Position numbers and translations under genes: made by a program. A stretch of DNA of 64,000 nucleotides from Nitrososphaerota archaeon (lineage in GTDB: Archaea > Thermoproteota > Nitrososphaeria > Conexivisphaerales > DTJL01): positions 386,122 through 450,121 of the forward strand of contig JAJPJS010000025.1 in the NCBI GenBank assembly GCA_021324115.1, given 5' to 3'. The notes beneath the pieces are model-generated. The model saw only the letters and a list, made by a program, of their open reading frames with translations. It was not told where the DNA came from and did not search any database. The stretch's first letter is position 1. Each line of letters opens with the position of its first letter. Positions 7,759-56,891 of this stretch are shown piece after piece.

Positions 7759-8433
7759 TCAAACGGGTACCAGGTCGGCGAAAATGAAACCATCCCTTTC
7801 GACAACCTCTCCACGAACGAACCCTACGGGCGATTTGAATATGGGTCCATCGTAGGTGAATGTGTGGAACTCCCCCTTCTCCCCACAAGGGTCAACATTC
7901 TTCGGGAGAGACTCGATCAGCTCCAGGTTGTAGTCTTTGCCCGCATACTCCTTGCCGATCTTCTTGGGGTCCACCGTGCATATTGCCGCCTGAAAGCCGG
8001 ATTCGATTATTTTTCTTGATAATTTTCCTGGATCATATCCCCAGAGTGGGAAGATGCAGGACATGCCTGCCTGAGCCATCTTTTCTTCACGGTACTTGCG
8101 GATATCTTCCAGGTAGATGTCTCCAAATGCAACCTTGGTTACTCCTTGCGATTTTAAAGATTCGATCGCCTCCTTCATCTTTCTTTCATATTCTTCGTTT
8201 CCTGCCTTATACGTGATTTCCACCTGTAAAACGGGTATATCTATCGAACGTGACTGTCTGTTGAGAAGCTCACGTCTGACGCCATGCATGCTGATACGGT
8301 CGAACTCCTTGGTGATTGTGGTTAAAAGGGAGACCACCCTGTATCGTTTGTCTTTCATCAGTGTATAAAGCGCAAAGCTGCTGTCCTTTCCCCCGCTCCA
8401 GGACATGGCGATCGGTTCACGACTTGAAGGCAA
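7759..8433 (-). CDS. Dph6-like diphthine--ammonia ligase / ATP-pyrophosphatase
   Basis: PP-loop SWSGGKDSSFALY; VAFGDIYLEDIRKYREEKM; VDPCGEKGEFHTFTYDGPIF. Confidence 0.88.
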   Translation of the reverse strand: MPSSREPIAMSWSGGKDSSFALYTLMKDKRYRVVSLLTTITKEFDRISMHGVRRELLNRQSRSIDIPVLQVEITYKAGNEEYERKMKEAIESLKSQGVTKVAFGDIYLEDIRKYREEKMAQAGMSCIFPLWGYDPGKLSRKIIESGFQAAICTVDPKKIGKEYAGKDYNLELIESLPKNVDPCGEKGEFHTFTYDGPIFKSPVGFVRGEVVERDGFIFADLVPV

Positions 8434-8595
8434 CTATACAACACCTCTCAGGATGGTATGCCGGTTGATAATTATCAAACGATTCTGCAAGGTAGTAGAA
8501 GCCTCCTTATGATAATGCGAGGAAACCCCAGCAGGTGTACTTGGCCAAAAGGAGTTGATTGGATTGCAGGAGCCTCATCCCATCCAGCAAACCAA

Positions 8596-9102
8596 TCACC
8601 CGTGGGATGGTGCGGCTGACAGGTGCTCGTAAGGTGCGGAGCTTGGACCGTTGCCTGATTTCGCACCGGGTTTTTCCGGCCACGAAGGTTGCCAAATTCT
8701 TCTCCAGAATGCTGCTGCAATGGATAGGAAGGAAGCCAGCCAGATCACGTAAAATGCTGCACCCCATGTAACTGGGGCAGTGAGGTCGTTGTTCAGGTAA
8801 GGGCTCATCGTCAGCATACCTACTCCTATCAGGCCAAGAACACCGCTACCCAAAGGAAAAATACCTACGAGTCCTGCGATCGTGAGGATAATGACAGCTG
8901 CGACCAGCATGAAATCTGTTGTTAAAAGGTCAGTATCCCCACTCGATTCGACCGCACTGAGGTGGGACACAACCCTACCAAATGCTGAATATAGCGTGGA
9001 TGAGGTATCGGAAATGCCGGGAAGAGTGCCAAATGGCAAAAGAAATACGGAAACCAGAATTACGATCCCCATCGCCGCGCCCACTAGCCTGCCGGGATAC
9101 AC
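8596..9102 (-). CDS. Hypothetical membrane protein (about 4 TM)
   Basis: Open frame with regular hydrophobic helices. Confidence 0.55.
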   Translation of the reverse strand: MYPGRLVGAAMGIVILVSVFLLPFGTLPGISDTSSTLYSAFGRVVSHLSAVESSGDTDLLTTDFMLVAAVIILTIAGLVGIFPLGSGVLGLIGVGMLTMSPYLNNDLTAPVTWGAAFYVIWLASFLSIAAAFWRRIWQPSWPEKPGAKSGNGPSSAPYEHLSAAPSHG

Positions 9103-9221
9103 GTTGCATCTTTCCGATGAGGATTATTAAATTCTATCTTTGAACTGTTCCAGAAGCAGGCCTACACGATGCAGGTAAGTTACTGGTGGAGGTGAGTTCG
9201 CGTGTGGCTGAAAATTCTTTA

Positions 9222-11042
9222 TCATTCATGAATTTCCTTCAACTTCGTGGTCAACTCTCTGAGGACTCCAAAACCTCGTCTCCAAAATTCCTTTGATTCT
9301 AGGTCCACTCCCACCTCACTGAGTATTTTATGAGGGCTCGCCGAGCCACCGTACTCCAGGACCCTCATGTACTTTGGAACGAACTCCCGTCCCCTCTCGC
9401 GGTATTCATCATAAAGTGCAAGCGTCAGCAGGTTTCCGAACGCATATGCGTAGCAATAAAATGGGGTGTGGTAAATGTGGGGAATGTATGTCCACTCCCA
9501 CATGAATTCATTCGGGACATCCACAGAATCTCCAAACTGCTCCCGAAGAAGTTCGATGTAGATCCTGTTCAGGTCGTCAACTGTTTTACCGTCCTGAGCC
9601 GCTTTGTGCGCAGAAAGTTCGAACAGGACGAAATAAGCCTGCCTCTGGATCGTCGAATACATCTCGGCGAGCTTCTCCTCAAGTATACCGGACAGTGTTC
9701 CCTTATCGGCGACTCTTTCGGTCATGTAGTCATACAGGATCATTTCTCCGAAAACCGAGGCTGTCTCAGCAAGGACAAGGGGCGGAGAATATGTTAGGAT
9801 GGAATGCCTCGATGCTAGCTGGTCATGGACCGCATGCCCCGACTCGTGAGCTATTGTGTAAACGTCCCGCGTGGTGCCGGAGTAGCTCAGCAGGATATAG
9901 GGGGTTATTTTGGGTGTGACCTGGGAGCAATATGCGCCTGAAACCTTCCCCGGCCTTATCTCAGAATCAACATGTTGACTATCAAACACCTTCTTTGCAA
10001 GTGAAGAGAAACCAGCGTCAAATTTTGAGAAGGCAGAAAGGACGGTTGTCACTGCCTCGCTGTAGCCGGTCCTTGCCTCTTCTTTTTTCACCGGAGCATA
10101 GATGTCATACCTTCTGAGCCTCCTCATTCCAAGCATCTTTGCCTTCAACCTGAAAAAGTCCTGGAAAACCGAAGCATTCTCCCTGCAGGTCGCCAAAAGA
10201 ACTTCGACGGTCAGGTCGCTTATGTCATTCTCCAGATTGCGCGCAGAGATTGGAGTCCTGTAATTCCTAAGCGTGACGTTTTCGTTGTACCAGTCCTTTA
10301 CTATGTTTCTGTATATATCGCCCAGATGCTTGCCTTGTTCGGCATACTTCCTGAACAGGGTTACATAAGCCGCCTTTCTGGTTGCGGGATCCGGGGAGAA
10401 GGCGAGCCTCACAAGTTCGCTGGTTACAAACGTCTTTGGCTTGCCTGATTCATCCTTCAGAAGCTTGCCGTTAACCCTGACCCTGTAGGTGAACTCGGAG
10501 GTGAGCCTTTCGTAGTGTCTGACCCAGGCGTTCGAACCGGTTGTGTTTTTCAGGTTTATTGCCTGCTCCACAGGTTCCTGAAGTGTGTGGGGTGCCCTCT
10601 TCCTGATGGAAGAAAGAAAGTATACAAAGTCAGGATCGCCCGAGGGTACAAGGGTTCTATGCTTCTCTTCCGGAAGAGATATCCACCATAGCCTGAAAAA
10701 CATCGTCCTGTTCTCCACCTCCGCCAGGAAATCCTGAGTGGCGGCGAATTCCGCTGATGCCTTCTCCGATCTTGTGTCCTCTGAGAATTTCATGTATGAG
10801 TATGAGGCCAGCCGGGCTGTTGACTCGCTTATGCGTTCGAGCATTGTCAGTGCATTCATAACTTCGGAGGCAGTTGCCATGCTCAGCTTTGGCCGGAGGG
10901 CTTCGAACCTTTTCATCTCCGTATAGACATCTTTCTTCACTCTGCTGTATGAATTCGGACCTTCGTCGAGCACATCGGAGAGACGCCATCTTCCAGCTTC
11001 GTACACAGTACTATTCAACTGCGAAAAAGCCTTCTGTATCAT
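9222..11042 (-). CDS. pepF: Oligoendopeptidase F family M3 metallopeptidase
   Basis: Zinc motif IAHESGHAVHD; 606 aa. Confidence 0.9.
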   Translation of the reverse strand: MIQKAFSQLNSTVYEAGRWRLSDVLDEGPNSYSRVKKDVYTEMKRFEALRPKLSMATASEVMNALTMLERISESTARLASYSYMKFSEDTRSEKASAEFAATQDFLAEVENRTMFFRLWWISLPEEKHRTLVPSGDPDFVYFLSSIRKRAPHTLQEPVEQAINLKNTTGSNAWVRHYERLTSEFTYRVRVNGKLLKDESGKPKTFVTSELVRLAFSPDPATRKAAYVTLFRKYAEQGKHLGDIYRNIVKDWYNENVTLRNYRTPISARNLENDISDLTVEVLLATCRENASVFQDFFRLKAKMLGMRRLRRYDIYAPVKKEEARTGYSEAVTTVLSAFSKFDAGFSSLAKKVFDSQHVDSEIRPGKVSGAYCSQVTPKITPYILLSYSGTTRDVYTIAHESGHAVHDQLASRHSILTYSPPLVLAETASVFGEMILYDYMTERVADKGTLSGILEEKLAEMYSTIQRQAYFVLFELSAHKAAQDGKTVDDLNRIYIELLREQFGDSVDVPNEFMWEWTYIPHIYHTPFYCYAYAFGNLLTLALYDEYRERGREFVPKYMRVLEYGGSASPHKILSEVGVDLESKEFWRRGFGVLRELTTKLKEIHE

Positions 11043-48546: not shown

Positions 48547-49254
48547 TCAACTGGAGCCGGTGGAACCAAGGGTCCTCAGCCTTTCTCCTATCTCGGCTTC
48601 TGAAAGGCTGGTTGTGGCTGCCAAAATGATCCTTTCCCTTGACGCCAGCTCAACTGCAAGGGGGTCGAGCTGACTCAACCCATGTATCACCACCATTCTG
48701 GGCTTGAGCTGGGAAACCCTCACTGCGACCATCGGACTTCTTCCCAGTCCCACCTTCGTGAAGACGACCACCCTTTCGGTGCTCGAGCCATATATCGCAT
48801 AGAACTGCGCGCCGGAAAGGGAGTAGATGGTGCGAAGGCTGTCAAGCACTGTGAAACCGAAGAGTGACCTGTCGAGCTGATCCTCACCTGTAAGTATCCT
48901 GCACCGGAGCGCCTCAGAGACACTTCTGGCAGATACCGGGTCCGCATACTCCCCTATGTAGAGTATGGCGCCTTCACGTGTCGGTTCCGGCTTTGACCTG
49001 AGAAGTCTCCCTTCCTTACGATCGATGTTGGTGAGTGACAATACGAACCTCCTAAGGAAACCTGCTCCCGGCGAATGACGCCTGCCGTTTTCGTAGTCAC
49101 TCAGCACCGACGGGGATATCTTCATTTCACGCGCAAGCTCGGCCTGGCCTACACCCGCACGCTCTCTCCACATCTTCATCGTGCGACCGGGTTGCTGGCT
49201 CACGGCAAGTTCCCCAGCAATTGTGATGAGAAGCTGATCGTAGGGGTCAGACAA
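48547..49254 (-). CDS. Archaeal HTH (XRE-like) transcriptional regulator
   Basis: TMKMWRERAGVGQAELAREMKISPSVLSDYENGRRHSPGAGFLRRFV. Confidence 0.85.
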   Translation of the reverse strand: MSDPYDQLLITIAGELAVSQQPGRTMKMWRERAGVGQAELAREMKISPSVLSDYENGRRHSPGAGFLRRFVLSLTNIDRKEGRLLRSKPEPTREGAILYIGEYADPVSARSVSEALRCRILTGEDQLDRSLFGFTVLDSLRTIYSLSGAQFYAIYGSSTERVVVFTKVGLGRSPMVAVRVSQLKPRMVVIHGLSQLDPLAVELASRERIILAATTSLSEAEIGERLRTLGSTGSS

Positions 49255-49354
49255 GATAAGACGACCATGCGTCAGATGACGACATGATATTTAACGTTTG
49301 CCGGCGGCGTGACGTGATTTCCTTTTGATCGTGTATCACCCGGCTGGATTGTCA

Positions 49355-50833
49355 TCACCGGGTCTCGACGGGCGGCGTGCTTTCTATGTGACTGGTGAAG
49401 AAAAGCCTCGTCGAACCAAGGGACTGGAAGTCCGTATCCACGGATTTGACCACCACGGGCAGGTCGCCCACCACTTTGCCGAGAACGAGACAGTGCTTCG
49501 GCTCGAGAGTTCTGACAATGCTCTTGACTGTCTCGAAGTCTGTCATCGAAGCCTGCGCCACCTGCTCTATATCCTTCTCATTCGTAAAGTTGTAAAGGAA
49601 TATGTTGTCCGCCTGCCTGTATATGTCCGGTCCGATCGCATCCGGCTGATTTGTGACGAACGTGCTGAAGACGCCGAAGTGTCTCATTCGGGTGATGAGG
49701 TCCTCCCAGTAGGTGTGCCTCAGATAAAGGTGTGCTTCTTCTGCAAGCAGAAAGACAGGCTCGAGCGTCCTCTGCTCGAGGCAATCTATCAGCTTGGCGA
49801 GCACGGACTCAACAATCATCCGCCTTGCTAGAGGACCCACACCGCTCAGTGTGACGATCAGTGCTCCTCCATCCTTCATAGAGGCGAATTCCTCCTCGAT
49901 TGTGGTAACGTACCTGGAATTGTCCGATATCAGGTCTGACGAGATAAGTGAATAATACCTTGAAAGCAGGGCATCTCTCACGAACTCGTTGCAGTGCCAG
50001 TGGTTGATCGTTTCTTCGAGGTCCTTCAACGTCACCCTCCCGCTCTGCTCAAGGTAATCCCATATCCTCATGAACTCCCTCATCGTGGCTCCAGGGACCT
50101 CCAGGACATTCTGCAGTACATCCACAAGAATCCTCTTTCCCAAATATCTGAGGCTGAACCTGAGGTTGTAGCCTGGCTGGAGCACCTTCACCCTCTTGGC
50201 ATATCTGCTAACACCGCCTTCCCTGCTCAGTGCCAGTCCACCATATTCCCCGTTCAGGTCGAATATCAGGACCTTGGCCCCATGGTCCAGCAAACCAGAC
50301 ACCAGAAGCTTGGCCATGTGCGACTTTCCTGCCTCCTTCCTGCCTGTTATGATGTTCAGCCTGCCGTCAAGGTCCTCCGCATTGATTGAATTCCCTTCGC
50401 CGTTCACAGATTCACCGAGAAGTATACGGCGGGTTCCCCTTGACCCTATTATTTCGTAAAGCTCGGACACACCCATCTTGCTGACGGTGCTCGAGCTCCT
50501 GCTTGGCAGCCAGCCCGATTCCGGGATTCTTTTTCCCGCCCTGATGACGCACCTGATCTTGCACAGCAGCACCCTGGCATCCTTTATCATCACACCCAGA
50601 CTCTCCATTTCGAGCGGGTCGAGCCTGTTCAGCTCCGACCCTGAAAAGAGTTCATCCCTGAGAAGGTCCTCCTGAATGCCGGGCGAATCGAGGTAGGCTG
50701 AATCATACAGCTGGACCACCATCTGAGTATCTGCCCTCTCATCGACTATCTTCATGTATTCCCCCTTCGTGAATTCTTCGCCCGGAAGTGCAAGTATCAT
50801 CATCTCGTCACCCCTTTTGGAAAGGATTCTCAA
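49355..50833 (-). CDS. HerA-like hexameric ATPase
   Basis: Walker A GRKEAGKSH, Walker B EPVFLLAEEAHLYL, sensor-like FVTNQPDAI. Confidence 0.85.
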   Translation of the reverse strand: MRILSKRGDEMMILALPGEEFTKGEYMKIVDERADTQMVVQLYDSAYLDSPGIQEDLLRDELFSGSELNRLDPLEMESLGVMIKDARVLLCKIRCVIRAGKRIPESGWLPSRSSSTVSKMGVSELYEIIGSRGTRRILLGESVNGEGNSINAEDLDGRLNIITGRKEAGKSHMAKLLVSGLLDHGAKVLIFDLNGEYGGLALSREGGVSRYAKRVKVLQPGYNLRFSLRYLGKRILVDVLQNVLEVPGATMREFMRIWDYLEQSGRVTLKDLEETINHWHCNEFVRDALLSRYYSLISSDLISDNSRYVTTIEEEFASMKDGGALIVTLSGVGPLARRMIVESVLAKLIDCLEQRTLEPVFLLAEEAHLYLRHTYWEDLITRMRHFGVFSTFVTNQPDAIGPDIYRQADNIFLYNFTNEKDIEQVAQASMTDFETVKSIVRTLEPKHCLVLGKVVGDLPVVVKSVDTDFQSLGSTRLFFTSHIESTPPVETR

Positions 50834-51840
50834 TTTCCTCCCCTCCCTCCGAGCTGCATCTTCCCGAGAAGTGCGCGCCTCACGTTGAACGACTGTACCA
50901 CATTTGTTCCCTCCGTCCTCACCAGCCTTCCCTTTGCGCTCTCCTCTTCACCGAGTGAGAAGATCGACAGGATATGAGCAGCCTTCAGGGTGTCGGGGTA
51001 TCCATGGCAGAGTATGTCGCTGGCTACAAGCGAGGAAAGCGACCCTTCGAGTCCTTCTTCCGTCAGGATATCTATCCTAAGTGGAACTCCGTCCGAAGAA
51101 AGCCTTGCCAGGACCGAGCGACCCAGCACGGTGGGTGCGATTGAACGAACAACGTCAGAAACTTCCATGAAGGATGGTCTGGTGCTTTTGTAAAGCTTCC
51201 CTTCAAGTCTCTGGAGGGGTCTGAGCTTCGTGTTCTTTGTCACACCCATGAGTACGACCCCGTTTCTTTCGCATGTCTCAGCAATCCTCACGAGTGAACA
51301 TCTTGAAGGTTCGAAATTGGAAACCCTGAGCGAGCCATCAAGTGCAAGAATCCCTCCACTCATGTTGATTGCAACATCGAGGGCTGCAGCCCTTTCCATA
51401 ATCACCCTCACAACCCTTGTCGCTACGGCTGCGTCATGTATTATGAATCGCTCAGGCAGCCTGTTTGAAAGAAGCTCATTAACCTTGGCGACGTTCGACT
51501 CGCCGATATAGAAGATGCTTGGTCCGAACACATACGCATATTTCTTTCCTTCGCGCCTGGAGGAGACCGTCACCTTCCCCGCCATGACAAATCCGTCATC
51601 CACCTCCCCAAGCACGATTACGCTGGAATCGATGGAAGAAACCGGTTTGACGCTGCCCTCGGTTGGGATGGGTACGCAGGATGAACCCCCTGAAGACTCT
51701 GCAGCTGAGACACTTCCCCAGCCCATCAACGGCTGCTGCTCCTCGCCGTTGCGGTACAGAACCATCCTCCTGCCCCTTATCCCCGAAAGACTTGCCAGCG
51801 AAAGTTGTGCTACTTCACTTACGCTGCTCCCAAGTATCAA
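50830..51840 (-). CDS. NurA-like nuclease
   Basis: SSIDSSVIVLGEVDDGFVMAGKV, GGILALDGSL, GVVLMGVTKNTKLRPL; 4-nt overlap with HerA-like gene. Start set at TTG 51838-51840 because the longer ORF runs into the divergent promoter. Confidence 0.7.
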   Translation of the reverse strand: MILGSSVSEVAQLSLASLSGIRGRRMVLYRNGEEQQPLMGWGSVSAAESSGGSSCVPIPTEGSVKPVSSIDSSVIVLGEVDDGFVMAGKVTVSSRREGKKYAYVFGPSIFYIGESNVAKVNELLSNRLPERFIIHDAAVATRVVRVIMERAAALDVAINMSGGILALDGSLRVSNFEPSRCSLVRIAETCERNGVVLMGVTKNTKLRPLQRLEGKLYKSTRPSFMEVSDVVRSIAPTVLGRSVLARLSSDGVPLRIDILTEEGLEGSLSSLVASDILCHGYPDTLKAAHILSIFSLGEEESAKGRLVRTEGTNVVQSFNVRRALLGKMQLGGRGGN

Positions 51841-51882
51841 ACGAAATAACCTCCCACAGACATATTGGTAATGTTTATTTGC

Positions 51883-51952
51883 TTGCGCATCTTGAACAAC
51901 AACAGGAGGGGAACTAAAGTTAATAAATATTGCGCAATAGCATCTTGCGCAA
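51883..51952. promoter_or_regulatory. Three TTGCGCAA/TTGCGCAT motifs in divergent promoter region
   Basis: TTGCGCAT 51883-51890, TTGCGCAA 51930-51937, TTGCGCAA 51945-51952 (last two perfect palindromes, centres 15 bp apart). Confidence 0.6.
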
Positions 51953-51956
51953 CAAT

Positions 51957-52388
51957 ATGGGTGATGCATCGTTGAGCGGCTCGACGATGATCCATATCAA
52001 ACTCAAGCGCGGAAGCTGGGAAATTGACCTTGACTGCCCGGAGGAAAGGGTAACCGAAACAATAAGGAATGTCCTGGCGGGGCTGGACGTACCCCAGGGG
52101 ATTCCCCGAGCACTGGACGAAGACAAATCAGCCGGCGCGGGCAGGGGGGTCACCTGCAAGTGGCTGCTGGAAGGGATGTACCGGGAAGGCTGGTTTTCCC
52201 AGCCTCGCAGTCTATCGGAGGTGGATGAAGAACTTGCCAGGAGGGGGTACCACTACGACAGGACCGCAGTCTCCCACAGCCTCACGGACCTCGTCAGGGA
52301 GCAGTTATTGAGCAGGGATGGTGCGCCGAGGAACTACACGTACGTTCAGAAAAAGCCCCCGGAACCTGCTCCGGCGACTCACCTGTGA
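51957..52388 (+). CDS. Small protein: N-terminal strand/helix domain plus wHTH (copy A)
   Basis: IHIKLKRGSWEIDLDCPEERVTETIRNVL...SQPRSLSEVDEELARRGYHYDRTAVSHSLTDLVREQLLSRDGAPRNYTYV; start at ATG 51957 preferred over TTG 51930. Confidence 0.7.
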   Translation: MGDASLSGSTMIHIKLKRGSWEIDLDCPEERVTETIRNVLAGLDVPQGIPRALDEDKSAGAGRGVTCKWLLEGMYREGWFSQPRSLSEVDEELARRGYHYDRTAVSHSLTDLVREQLLSRDGAPRNYTYVQKKPPEPAPATHL

Positions 52389-52876
52389 CGGGGTAGCTGT
52401 TTGACCAGCCAGTCTATTCCAACTGTGTTTATGAAGTAGAATGTGCCATCGTCCACGACGACCCTGTCCACATAACCTGCCTTTACGAGCTCGCTGAGCC
52501 TGGAGCTTATCGACTTGGGGTTCAGTCCCGTGGTCCTCTCAAGCTCCTGAAGCGTGGTCCTGGCAGAAGACTGCTTCCCTGATTCTGCGTACACCTTCAC
52601 CGCTACAAGCTGCAGTGCGATCAGTATCTTGTCGCTCAATGGCCTATCAGAAACAACGCGGGGACCCTCCGGCGTTATTCTTACGAAGTCTCCGAACCTG
52701 TTCATGAGGTCTGAAAGGCTGAAGCTGAGGAACACCTTCTTCGCAAGGTTGAAGGTGGGTATTGTCTGAGTTGCAAGCCTGTTCACTTCGAGCGCCACAT
52801 CTTCAGGTGAACCTTCGAGTTCGGTTTCAAAACTATCGATTTTGAGATGGACCTTCATCTTGTGTTCTATGCTCAA
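52379..52876 (-). CDS. Small protein: N-terminal strand/helix domain plus wHTH (copy B)
   Basis: MKVHLKIDSFETELEGSPEDVALEVNRL...TTLQELERTTGLNPKSISSRLSELVKAGYVDRVVVDDGTFYFIN. Confidence 0.7.
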   Translation of the reverse strand: MSIEHKMKVHLKIDSFETELEGSPEDVALEVNRLATQTIPTFNLAKKVFLSFSLSDLMNRFGDFVRITPEGPRVVSDRPLSDKILIALQLVAVKVYAESGKQSSARTTLQELERTTGLNPKSISSRLSELVKAGYVDRVVVDDGTFYFINTVGIDWLVKQLPRHR

Positions 52877-53364
52877 GCTGTTTCACCCTTTTGAATCTCC
52901 AGTGTCTCGCCAACCAGTTCGGGGGCTAAAAGACTTGTCGATGCGGTGTAAACATATTCTCCGTCGGGCTGCTTGAATCTTCTCAACTTGCCCTCCTTTG
53001 CAAGCCTAAGGAGGGCAACGGCCACAGACTGTTTGGGATAGACGAAGCCAAAGTTCGCAAGAAGGTCCTTGACCTCAAGAAGTTTTCTGGGCTGTCTACC
53101 CCACTGGCTGTTGAAAAGCTTGATAATAAGGGAAGGAAGGGATTCACCTCTTTCAAACTTTACTTCAGGGAGCTCCTGAGGTTGAGAAGGAGATATGACC
53201 GCAACAGGCTGAGGTGGCGAAGATGTAGAGAGTTTTGAAACGATTGTGGGGATCAGGTCGATCATCTCAAGTATGTCATCCTTCGATGCCTCGATCTCCG
53301 CTTCCACCGTTCCCTGCCTTACCCGCATTCTCACCCTGCTTTCTGACATGCGACATCTTCCCAA
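52873..53364 (-). CDS. Small protein: N-terminal strand/helix domain plus wHTH (copy C)
   Basis: RVRMRVRQGTVEAEIEASKDDILEMIDLI...GRQPRKLLEVKDLLANFGFVYPKQSVAVALLRLAKEGKLRRFKQPDGEYVYT. Confidence 0.7.
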   Translation of the reverse strand: MGRCRMSESRVRMRVRQGTVEAEIEASKDDILEMIDLIPTIVSKLSTSSPPQPVAVISPSQPQELPEVKFERGESLPSLIIKLFNSQWGRQPRKLLEVKDLLANFGFVYPKQSVAVALLRLAKEGKLRRFKQPDGEYVYTASTSLLAPELVGETLEIQKGETA

Positions 53365-53617: not shown

Positions 53618-55558
53618 CTATTTCTTTGCTTCAGACTTTTTCTGGTTTATTACTTTCAGGAGTATGCTTTTGACCTCTGAGCTCACGATCGAGCCGTCGA
53701 TTCTTCCCCTTACACGCGCCATGACGGTCCCCATTATCGGGCTGAAGGCTGCTTCTCCTTTCTTTTCCACGAGCTGCATATTTTCCTTGATAGAATCACC
53801 TATTATGCTCCTCAGCTCCTCCACCGTGATCTTCTGGACACCCAGCCTCGCAAGTGCCGTGGGGACATCGTCTGCGTCCCCCTTCGATATCGACTCAAGG
53901 ACAGGCTGCACCGCTTCCTTCGCAAGCTTCCCTTCAGATAGCTGTTTGAAAAGATCAAAAAGTAACTCCTCCGTAATTCTTTCGACATCCATCCCCTCCT
54001 CTCTCCTCACCGCGGTCAGGGTGTCGGTCAGAATGGAAACCACGACGCTCGGGCTCAACTTCGTACTGCTGCAAACCTTCTCGAAGAGTTCGAAGTAATC
54101 TGAGTCCAAGATGCGTTCTGCCTGCTCCAAGGATATTTTGTAAGTAGAGGAGCACGCTTCCACCTGCTCCTCCCATGGCTTTGGAATCTTCTTTCTGACC
54201 CGGTGGAGAACATCTTCGGTGATTTCGATTGGAAGGATATCAGTTTCAGGATACATCCTCGCCGAGCCCGGTCTTGGCCTGAGGTATCTTGTCTCACCCT
54301 CCGGAGTTGCAGCTCGCGTTTCCGCGGGGGGTCCCCTGAGCGACTGGCGGAGCCTGCTCAGAAGCGCTGCAATGCATTCACGGAGTCTTGTGGATTCGCC
54401 GACTAGGAGGAGAAAGGCGTCATCATCGCCGCAGGAAAGCGCCTTTTTCACACTGCTCACCTCTCCTTCGGTGACGCCAAGACCTGGAAGCTCGTCGGAA
54501 TGAAGGAGACCACCCAGCCCGTAGAACCGTGCGATTCCGGCAAGCTCCCTTCCCAGTCTGAGCCCTTCGCTGGGCTCCAGGGATATCAGTCCTTTCATCC
54601 TGGGTAGCTTTACTCCCAGAGCCACTCCCCCGTTCTTCAGGCCTGCGGCGATCACCCTGCTGCCTGTACCGTTGAAGAGATGAGTGAGTTCTCGGGGTGA
54701 CTGTGTGAGGTCTGTTTCATTTATCCCTCTTTCCCTGACCCTTGAGGCGAGTTCGTGGAGCCAGAGTTGACGCCTCGCCTCGAACTCAACCACCTTGGAG
54801 ATAAGCTCGAGCTGCTGAACCCCTTTTACCTCGATCACCTGGCCATTCATCACGGAGATGTTTACGTCCTGTCTTATCGCCCCGAGACCACGTTCCACCC
54901 TGCCCGTCGCCTTCAGCAATCGACCAAGCGACATTGCGAGGTCCTGAACCTGGGCGGGGCTGGCGGTTACAGGAGAGAGGGAAATTTCTATGAGGGGGAC
55001 ACCCAACCTGTCGAGCGAAAATATCCTTTCGCCCGGTTTTTCGCCAATGTTCCTTGCAGCATCCTCTTCAAGCGTGACGGTCTGAACCCCAACCTCCTTC
55101 TGCGGTCCATTCTTCCATCGAAGAGTCCCTCCCAGGCCAACCACCATCGTGCGCTGGAATCCGCTTGTGTTGGAGCCATCGATAACCATCTTCCTCATAA
55201 CATGAATCTCGTCCACGACCTTTGAATCGAGCTGCAATGCTATCATGAGTGCGGTCTCAATGGAGAAGGGGTCCGGGTCATGGGGTGGCTCTTCGTCCGC
55301 TTCAACTATGCAGCTGAAATTCTGCCCAGCCTGATACTTTATCCAGTCCTCCTTCTGCGCTTCAAAAAGAGCGGCGGGATCAACTTCGCCCAATTCACTC
55401 TGGCTGGGTCTCAGTCGTCTTACAAAACTGACCGAGCCTTCCTCCTTTCCGATCGGGCAGTGGCAGAACAGCTTTCTTTCGGCTTGCAACTGCCTGTGTA
55501 GTTCTATACCAACCTTCAGGCCGATCTTCTCAGGGTCGAGCGCAGGCTGGCTGTTCAA
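53618..55558 (-). CDS. gatE: Glu-tRNA(Gln) amidotransferase subunit E
   Basis: GLKVGIELHRQLQAERKLFCHCPI, LGAIRQDVNISV, GVQQLELISKVVEFEARRQ. Confidence 0.96.
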   Translation of the reverse strand: MNSQPALDPEKIGLKVGIELHRQLQAERKLFCHCPIGKEEGSVSFVRRLRPSQSELGEVDPAALFEAQKEDWIKYQAGQNFSCIVEADEEPPHDPDPFSIETALMIALQLDSKVVDEIHVMRKMVIDGSNTSGFQRTMVVGLGGTLRWKNGPQKEVGVQTVTLEEDAARNIGEKPGERIFSLDRLGVPLIEISLSPVTASPAQVQDLAMSLGRLLKATGRVERGLGAIRQDVNISVMNGQVIEVKGVQQLELISKVVEFEARRQLWLHELASRVRERGINETDLTQSPRELTHLFNGTGSRVIAAGLKNGGVALGVKLPRMKGLISLEPSEGLRLGRELAGIARFYGLGGLLHSDELPGLGVTEGEVSSVKKALSCGDDDAFLLLVGESTRLRECIAALLSRLRQSLRGPPAETRAATPEGETRYLRPRPGSARMYPETDILPIEITEDVLHRVRKKIPKPWEEQVEACSSTYKISLEQAERILDSDYFELFEKVCSSTKLSPSVVVSILTDTLTAVRREEGMDVERITEELLFDLFKQLSEGKLAKEAVQPVLESISKGDADDVPTALARLGVQKITVEELRSIIGDSIKENMQLVEKKGEAAFSPIMGTVMARVRGRIDGSIVSSEVKSILLKVINQKKSEAKK

Positions 55559-55559
55559 A

Positions 55560-56891
55560 TCAAATCAGCCTCCTGTCGGCCAGCTCGCCACGAAGGTTGG
55601 ACCGCATCAATCTTGCTATCTCAGCGGGGTCATTGTGATGCCCGAGTAGCCAGGAAAGTTTCGCGTATGCGACTTCGGAGAGCATGTCACCGAGCGGGAC
55701 AACGCCTAATTTGAGAAGGTCCCTTCCGGTGTCATAGACCGTCATCCTGACGCTTCCGTTTATGCACTGACTCGTCATCGCGACCACGACGCCTCTGGAT
55801 ACCGCTGCCTTGATCGAGTCGAATAGATGCCTGGGTGCATGTCCGAGTCCGGTGCCTTCGAACACTATCCCTCTGCAGCCGGAATCCAGCAAACCTTCAA
55901 TTATTGACGGACTTATTCCAGGATATACCTTCACCAGTGAAACTTTTTCATCGAAGGAGGAGTGAAGGGTGAATCCGTCAAAAGAGTTTCTTCGGGGTGC
56001 AAAACCGGGCCTGAGGCTGATTTCTTCCCCCTTGATGGTTCCTGCCGGTGTTCCATTCACAGTCTGGAAAGCATCCCTTCTGCTTGTGTGAAGTTTTCTC
56101 ACCCTGACGCCTAAATGCACGGTTAACGAAGTATCGCTGAGCCCTGCGTGCATGACGACAAAAACCCCGCTTACCTGCGCATGAGCGGCGAACCTGACGG
56201 CGCCTATCATGTTTATGGCTGAATCAGACGAGGGTCTGTCAGATGACCTCTGGGAACCGACGAGCACCACCGGAACGGGAAGATTTTCCAGTGCAAATGT
56301 CAGCGCGGCCGCGGTGTAGTGCATGGTGTCAGTTCCGTGAGCAACGACCACGCCGTGCGCTCCTTCCATGACTGCAGATGCCACCTCCTCTGCCAGCTTC
56401 GACCAGTGCCTGGGCGTAAGGTTTTCACTGTATACGTTGAATACGGCCTTGGTTGTAATGTCTGCCAAACCAGACAGTTCAGGAACCAGCAGGTAGAGTT
56501 CCTCCGCAGTAAGTGCCGGCTTGACACCACCAGTTCTGTAATCAATACGGCTGGCGATCGTTCCGCCTGTGCCGATTATCGTGACGTTGGGAAGTCCAGA
56601 TGCAGAGGCCGGTTTGGAAGGATGGATAAAACTCGGCTCCCTGCCTTTTTGTTTCAGCGTGATGCTCGAGATCCTGTTGATTGATAAACCAACGTTGTAT
56701 CCGTTGGGAAGTTTCAAGGTCACGATGGTGGGTCTTTCATACGTGGTCTGCGGCAGAAGGACTCCTTCGATCGTATTCCCATCCTTCATCTCCAGGATGA
56801 CATCATCTCCCACTTTTGCCCCCGCCTTCGACAGGAACGATAAAATGGGGTCGCCGTAGCCGCCTGAATTTTCGGTTGTCAATTGAACCAC
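55560..56891 (-). CDS. gatD: Glu-tRNA(Gln) amidotransferase subunit D
   Basis: Asparaginase-like TIIGTGGTIASRIDYRTGGVKPALTAEEL and GVVVAHGTDTMHYTAAAL. Confidence 0.96.
   Translation of the reverse strand: MVQLTTENSGGYGDPILSFLSKAGAKVGDDVILEMKDGNTIEGVLLPQTTYERPTIVTLKLPNGYNVGLSINRISSITLKQKGREPSFIHPSKPASASGLPNVTIIGTGGTIASRIDYRTGGVKPALTAEELYLLVPELSGLADITTKAVFNVYSENLTPRHWSKLAEEVASAVMEGAHGVVVAHGTDTMHYTAAALTFALENLPVPVVLVGSQRSSDRPSSDSAINMIGAVRFAAHAQVSGVFVVMHAGLSDTSLTVHLGVRVRKLHTSRRDAFQTVNGTPAGTIKGEEISLRPGFAPRRNSFDGFTLHSSFDEKVSLVKVYPGISPSIIEGLLDSGCRGIVFEGTGLGHAPRHLFDSIKAAVSRGVVVAMTSQCINGSVRMTVYDTGRDLLKLGVVPLGDMLSEVAYAKLSWLLGHHNDPAEIARLMRSNLRGELADRRLI

Follow-up and report, generated by a model that had tools for sequence, protein, structure and literature searches.

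This report concerns a group of genes in a 64,000-nucleotide stretch of the genome of a Nitrososphaerota archaeon (the window is the whole of this 64-kb stretch), in which a divergent HerA-family ATPase (HerA2) and a divergent NurA-family nuclease (NurA2) lie next to three small proteins (wH1, wH2 and wH3), each with a beta-hairpin and a winged helix. The genome is a 2.14 Mb draft of 27 contigs that is 95% complete, and its nearest named relatives, judged by HerA, are metagenome-assembled genomes of Nitrososphaeria. An earlier note on this DNA had described a HerA-like and a NurA-like gene overlapping by 4 nt, an XRE-like regulator after them on the same strand and three flanking winged helix-turn-helix (wHTH) proteins, two of which also overlap by 4 nt. 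The open reading frames (ORFs) are as it stated, and both overlaps consist of TTGA; however, wH1 is on the opposite strand and diverges from NurA2.

Two gene starts were revised from the ORFs as listed (NurA 50830-51969, minus strand; wH1 51930-52388, plus strand). The NurA frame does run to 51969, but a start there was rejected because the upstream DNA is promoter and operator sequence that overlaps the wH1 start. NurA2 likely begins at a TTG preceded by a GGGAGG ribosome-binding site, and wH1 likely begins at an ATG (Table 1). The leader ORF shares a further TTGA overlap with the proposed start of NurA2, and translational coupling is possible. Its first residues resemble M..Q(L/I)N(L/I), the N-terminus of NurA2 in several other lineages; the peptide is a separate leader ORF in the family of the window and is fused to NurA in several others. 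A sigma-70 promoter scan was set aside as unsuited to archaea.

Table 1. Features of the HerA2-NurA2 locus and its neighbours (positions in the window).
Feature	Position	Strand	Remarks
HerA2	49355-50833	-	492 aa; divergent HerA-family ATPase; Walker A GRKEAGKSH, Walker B LLAEEAH
NurA2	50830-51840	-	about 336 aa from TTG 51840; frame open to 51969; divergent NurA-family nuclease
Leader ORF MRKQINITNMSVGGYFV	51837-51890	-	17 codons, ahead of NurA2; read from the sequence
Putative operator box N, TTGCGCATCTTGAACAA	51883-51899		over the NurA2 leader start; from motif enrichment and position
TATA-like element TTAATAAATA	51920-51929	+	wH1 promoter; read from the sequence
Putative operator box W, TTGCGCAA-N7-TTGCGCAA	51930-51952		between TATA element and wH1 start codon
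wH1	51957-52388	+	start codon ATG 51957; small protein with beta-hairpin and winged helix; diverges from NurA2; candidate autoregulator
wH2	52379-52876	-	small beta-hairpin and winged-helix protein; accompanies HerA2
wH3	52873-53364	-	small beta-hairpin and winged-helix protein; full-length homologue of wH1
XRE-type regulator	48547-49254	-	downstream of HerA2; neighbour, not core
GatE	53618-55558	-	upstream of wH3; named from sequence; conserved syntenic neighbour
GatD	55560-56891	-	upstream of wH3 beyond GatE; named from sequence; conserved syntenic neighbour

The earlier note had proposed hidden Markov model searches for both enzymes, and both score above the Pfam cut-offs: HerA2 against DUF87 (E 1.9e-11; 44.9 bits, cut-off 23.2) and NurA2, narrowly, against PF09376 (E 4.2e-5; 23.6 bits, cut-off 21). 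The Walker A and B residues of HerA2 (G164, K166, G169, K170, S171 and E365/E366) are invariant in 21 orthologues, and the best solved relative of its profile is HerA 4d2i (E 6.7e-17). HerA2 fails the NCBIfam HerA equivalog models, repair or antiphage (39.9 vs 800, 30.9 vs 800 and 26.7 vs 970 bits), which on sequence grounds places it outside the canonical HerA equivalogs. PF09376 is matched by 41 of the 46 NurA2 orthologues (best 7.8e-15), and the top solved match of the NurA2 profile is NurA 2ygk (E 0.0024), with which the DGSL and GYP..L..AH segments align. Residues D114, E192, D211, K245 and H332 (numbered from 51969) are invariant in the 46 sequences; the conserved Asp, Glu, Asp and His are presumably the known NurA active site.

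None of the three wH proteins matches a Pfam or NCBIfam family above cut-off, and the sequences of wH1 and wH2 give only weak, generic winged-helix matches to solved structures. The predicted structures of wH1 and wH2 (predicted local distance difference test scores of 79 and 86.5) each combine a beta-hairpin with a helix and a winged helix. The homology between wH1 and wH3 extends along the entire protein (hhalign E 5.6e-17); with wH2 they have in common the N-terminal strands and the wHTH. The closest fold to the wH2 model is AspA of pNOB8, with a template modelling score (target) of 0.82 and a root-mean-square deviation of 1.4. Since many MarR-type regulators come next in the ranking, this match is a lead only.

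Of 397 genomes from the phylum, 97 have both HerA2 and wH1, 23 have HerA2 without wH1, four have wH1 without HerA2 and 273 have neither (p 2e-64, a value that is overstated because the genomes are not independent). The telling point is that the two genes are adjacent (within 1.3 kb; median gap 1.15 kb) in 96 of the 97 genomes that have both. In a set of 101 relatives, strong matches to wH1 and wH2 occur almost exactly, near one-to-one, in the genomes with HerA2, and all three genes are absent from one large family of the class and from G081. The order GatD-GatE-wH3-wH2-wH1-NurA2-HerA2, with wH1 reversed, is kept from Nitrososphaeria to Bathyarchaeota; of 80 loci, 68 have a wH1 orthologue adjoining NurA2-HerA2 and 40 have GatE within 6.5 kb. 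One family has wH2 and wH3 relocated together, still in the genome. The arrangement is conserved across classes far beyond chance, and the small wH genes are not incidental to HerA2-NurA2. The earlier note had also asked about the neighbourhood as a whole: the wHTH genes are kept beside NurA2-HerA2, whereas the XRE gene (HTH_31, E 3.2e-11) is downstream in only 28 of 91 loci and was dropped as a core part because only some of the lineage has it.

The exceptions fit the same picture. In most of the examined HerA2 genomes without a recognisable wH1, NurA2 is immediately preceded on its own strand by genes for two or three wH2-like proteins (loci L177, L178, L180, L182, L183, L187 and L189, with a 4-nt overlap in L189). 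No wH protein was seen in L184, L185 and L186, which together with a CRISPR-linked locus, L065, form one HerA2/NurA2 subclade, and in L190 neither a NurA2 nor a wH neighbour was recognised. Three of the four genomes with wH1 and without HerA2 were examined (L174, L175 and L176), and in each the divergent neighbour of wH1 is a NurA-HerA pair that belongs to another clade, and wH2-like genes follow. The wH association therefore outlasts a change of the NurA/HerA partner clade.

Two side observations concern these outlying loci. The other-clade HerA has an intein at its P-loop in L174 (3842-6352; genome G112), where it matches Pfam Intein_splicing (5.9e-20), and in L175 (G119), where it was recognised by similarity. 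A family that lost HerA2/NurA2 still has a distantly wH1/wH3-like gene, with a peptidyl-prolyl isomerase and a sugar kinase nearby (L191, 6191-6673; L192, 5787-6272).

The DNA between wH1 and NurA2 has a conserved motif of its own. The 8-bp palindrome TTGNNCAA was seen 136 times in 70 non-redundant wH1/NurA2 regions, compared with 10 in shuffles; it is present in 64 of the 70 and in two or more copies in 46. It ranks first among 64 palindromes of the same shape, with a fivefold lead over the runner-up (25). The 2.3 Mb of loci contain 67 clusters of TTGNNCAA sites, and 57 of these fall in the wH1/NurA2 region (a count made by hand from a listing that includes loci with a mis-called wH1), and no clustered sites occur before wH3/wH2, GatD or the third-type operons. 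The only sites less than 40 bp apart in the 64-kb window are at 51892, 51930 and 51945. Common spacings are 9 and 37-38 bp, and in 27 of 78 regions a strict pattern finds a TATA-like element on the 5' side of a TTGNNCA site. In the genomes with swapped partners, the corresponding position of the wH1 promoter is occupied by TTGTTGA-N4-TCAACAA or by a 22-bp palindrome. A protein of DNA-binding type that diverges from its target, with a conserved putative operator between them, is the layout of an autoregulated divergent operon, and the predicted dedicated TTGNNCAA operator in the shared wH1/NurA2 promoter region is new. From the divergence and co-distribution of wH1, we infer that it is the protein that binds there.

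HerA2 and NurA2 are also distinct by descent. In FastTree phylogenies of HerA and of NurA, the window proteins are in clades of their own, separate from the pair of the canonical operon and from two other types; support is weak at some deep nodes of the NurA tree. Four relatives, G001, G002, G010 and G029, hold both the HerA2-NurA2 pair and, elsewhere, a separate nurA-herA-mre11-rad50 operon (L074, L075, L077 and L083, respectively). In the window's own draft assembly no second NurA was found, and the second canonical locus that the earlier note had suggested looking for did not turn up there. Mre11 and Rad50 are likewise absent from the 64-kb window, as that note had said, so that neither is linked to herA/nurA at this locus; they lie together on contig C9, with no NurA or HerA there. 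Mre11 was located by a search with the Mre11 of a relative, which replaced a search for Rad50 by PF04423 (zinc hook) and TIGR00606 that gave weak matches only; two Rad50 candidates, at C4:47054 (NrdJ-like) and C26:364k (SMC-like), were dropped on reading. In the single-contig genomes G095 and G033, the only NurA with PF09376 is that of the NurA2 pair, and Mre11 is elsewhere. These results would imply that the HerA2-NurA2 pair, which is a second system in some lineages, is possibly the sole one in others.

There are further HerA-like genes outside these loci. The window's genome has a pilus/archaellum-like ATPase cluster with a HerA/VirB4-like ATPase of 553 aa (L059, G000:C26:183000-197000). 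Further quartets of NurA, HerA, Mre11-like and Rad50-like genes are present in several families, including the one without HerA2 (L085, L087, L088, L089 and L092), and some of them carry a 201-aa protein with no Pfam match.

We think it fairly probable that the locus encodes a vertically inherited alternative HerA-NurA machine for processing DNA ends with its own control module, in which wH1 is the divergent autoregulator. Characterised HerA hexamers feed double-stranded DNA into a NurA dimer (PMC12977600, PMC9960219). By analogy, and from family membership and the conserved residues, HerA2 would be a hexameric ATP-driven pump that feeds double-stranded DNA to a dimeric NurA2 nuclease. wH1 would bind the TTGNNCAA palindromes, both those next to its TATA box and those overlying the NurA2 leader, repressing both promoters until the machine is needed, and wH2 and wH3, paralogous proteins with a hairpin and a winged helix, would be accessory DNA-binding partners that accompany the machine. 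Where no other NurA was found, as in the window's draft, the pair probably supplies the end-processing HerA-NurA activity with an unlinked Mre11-Rad50. Of the two ideas in the earlier note, the clades, the wHTH co-occurrence and the conserved operator bear out that of a divergent paralogue of HerA-NurA that has regulators of its own. That note had also named what would speak against its ideas: a sole herA-nurA pair, mre11 and rad50 elsewhere, and small wHTH genes not conserved alongside. The first two are what the draft has, but the decisive third is not, as the wHTH genes are conserved with the pair.

Several points weigh against this reading. A role in repair is deduced indirectly, because the chromosomal copies are outside any Mre11-Rad50 operon. 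No recognisable wH1 is present in 23 of the 120 HerA2 genomes, NurA2 is fast-evolving and in the window barely passes its Pfam cut-off, and wH2, wH3 or the XRE protein could bind the operator instead of wH1. A canonical operon, which the close relatives G001 and G002 have, may lie in a gap of the 95%-complete draft. One observation favours repair: in genome G337, of a family otherwise without HerA2, Mre11- and Rad50-like genes stand in one row with a HerA2/NurA2-clade pair (L184, 3354-9000).

A second explanation, which we regard as a real possibility though not as the likelier one, is that the small wHTH proteins are structural subunits, that is, DNA loaders or targeting adaptors of the motor, one of which binds the operator only as feedback. 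This would account for wH2 and wH3 staying in the genome with the module even after relocation, for the wH genes directly upstream of NurA2 where wH1 is unrecognisable, for the persistence of wH1 and wH2 next to a different NurA/HerA clade and for the resemblance of the wH2 fold to AspA, a segregation protein that spreads on DNA. However, a divergent wH1 with operator repeats at its own promoter is typical of a repressor, and no operator was found ahead of wH3/wH2. A broader proposal, which we put forward tentatively, would have the hairpin and winged-helix proteins as a dedicated partner family of archaeal HerA-NurA motors that might load or target the pump-nuclease, gate its expression and pass between unrelated clades, in which case the unit would be a five-protein machine not recognised so far.

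The earlier note had also considered a defence cassette, which would be antiviral in the manner of SIR2-HerA, HerA-DUF4297 or CRISPR-linked nurA-herA. HerA2 matches PADLOC mad8 (9.8e-15) and HerA models, a CRISPR-linked nurA-csm6-herA has been reported in Pyrobaculum (PMC3396285), and it has been argued that HerA-NurA may act in defence (PMC12977600). In addition, a HerA2/NurA2-clade pair without wH genes lies between cas1, csa1, csx1 and a RAMP gene in L065 (G035:C6:487001-507000, 8033-10520), which parallels the Pyrobaculum arrangement and shows that members of the subfamily can be drawn into defence. However, the HerA model scores are far below the curated cut-offs, and the CRISPR-linked and other wH-free copies are a separate subclade. 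Defence is not supported for the window's chromosomal copy, and as an explanation of the locus we consider it improbable, because HerA2-NurA2 is vertical in trees and a single copy fixed beside GatDE across classes, phage and plasmid collections hold no relative of it, and viral contigs give one short, weak match (39%) for HerA2 and none for wH1. No defence genes were seen around the locus.

Finally, it is likewise improbable that this is simply the organism's ordinary HerA-NurA, drifted away from mre11-rad50 with the wHTH genes as bystanders. In its favour, no other NurA was found in G000 or in the single-contig genomes G095 and G033, where Mre11 lies elsewhere. Against it, four relatives have the pair in addition to a canonical operon, the clades are deep and separate, and the wH genes are conserved along with the pair.

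The in vivo role of HerA-NurA is disputed between end resection and defence (PMC12977600). A separately regulated second HerA-NurA with its own switch, long kept beside or instead of the canonical operon, offers a way to separate these roles. The conserved operator opens the regulation to direct tests by DNA binding and would reveal the signal that releases the nuclease, and the locus gives a function-linked context to a small winged-helix family that had no Pfam or NCBIfam assignment in these searches. Papers on ammonia-oxidizing archaea list HerA-NurA without noting a HerA2-NurA2-wH system (PMC5797428, PMC7554672), and no description of the wHTH link or the operator was found in the open-licence literature.

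Compared with known systems, the locus resembles the canonical nurA-herA-mre11-rad50 operon in having a HerA with intact Walker A and B motifs adjoining, and tightly coupled to, a NurA with the conserved acidic/His set. It differs in that HerA2 and NurA2 are each in a clade apart from the canonical one, the wH-containing loci are unlinked to mre11-rad50, the system is linked to wH1-3 and a putative dedicated operator, and some relatives carry it alongside the canonical operon. Pyrobaculum is known to have several nurA-herA pairs (PMC3396285), and those additional to the repair pair are also vertically inherited; in contrast to the CRISPR-associated nurA-csm6-herA there, the window locus has no csm6, cas genes or array among its annotated neighbours, and has wHTH partners and the TTGNNCAA operator. 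The bacterial antiphage systems SIR2-HerA, HerA-DUF4297 and MADS (mad8) likewise pair a HerA-family ATPase with an effector nuclease, but here the effector is NurA, which has no PADLOC match, there is no SIR2 or DUF4297 partner or MADS gene set, and instead of a patchy spread in mobile or defence islands the locus shows vertical inheritance and conserved chromosomal synteny. As for AspA of pNOB8, the C-terminal winged helix of the wH2 model fits it, as winged helices fit many regulators, whereas wH2 has in addition a hairpin-helix unit at the N-terminus and a middle part, and no ParA/ParB neighbour in view.

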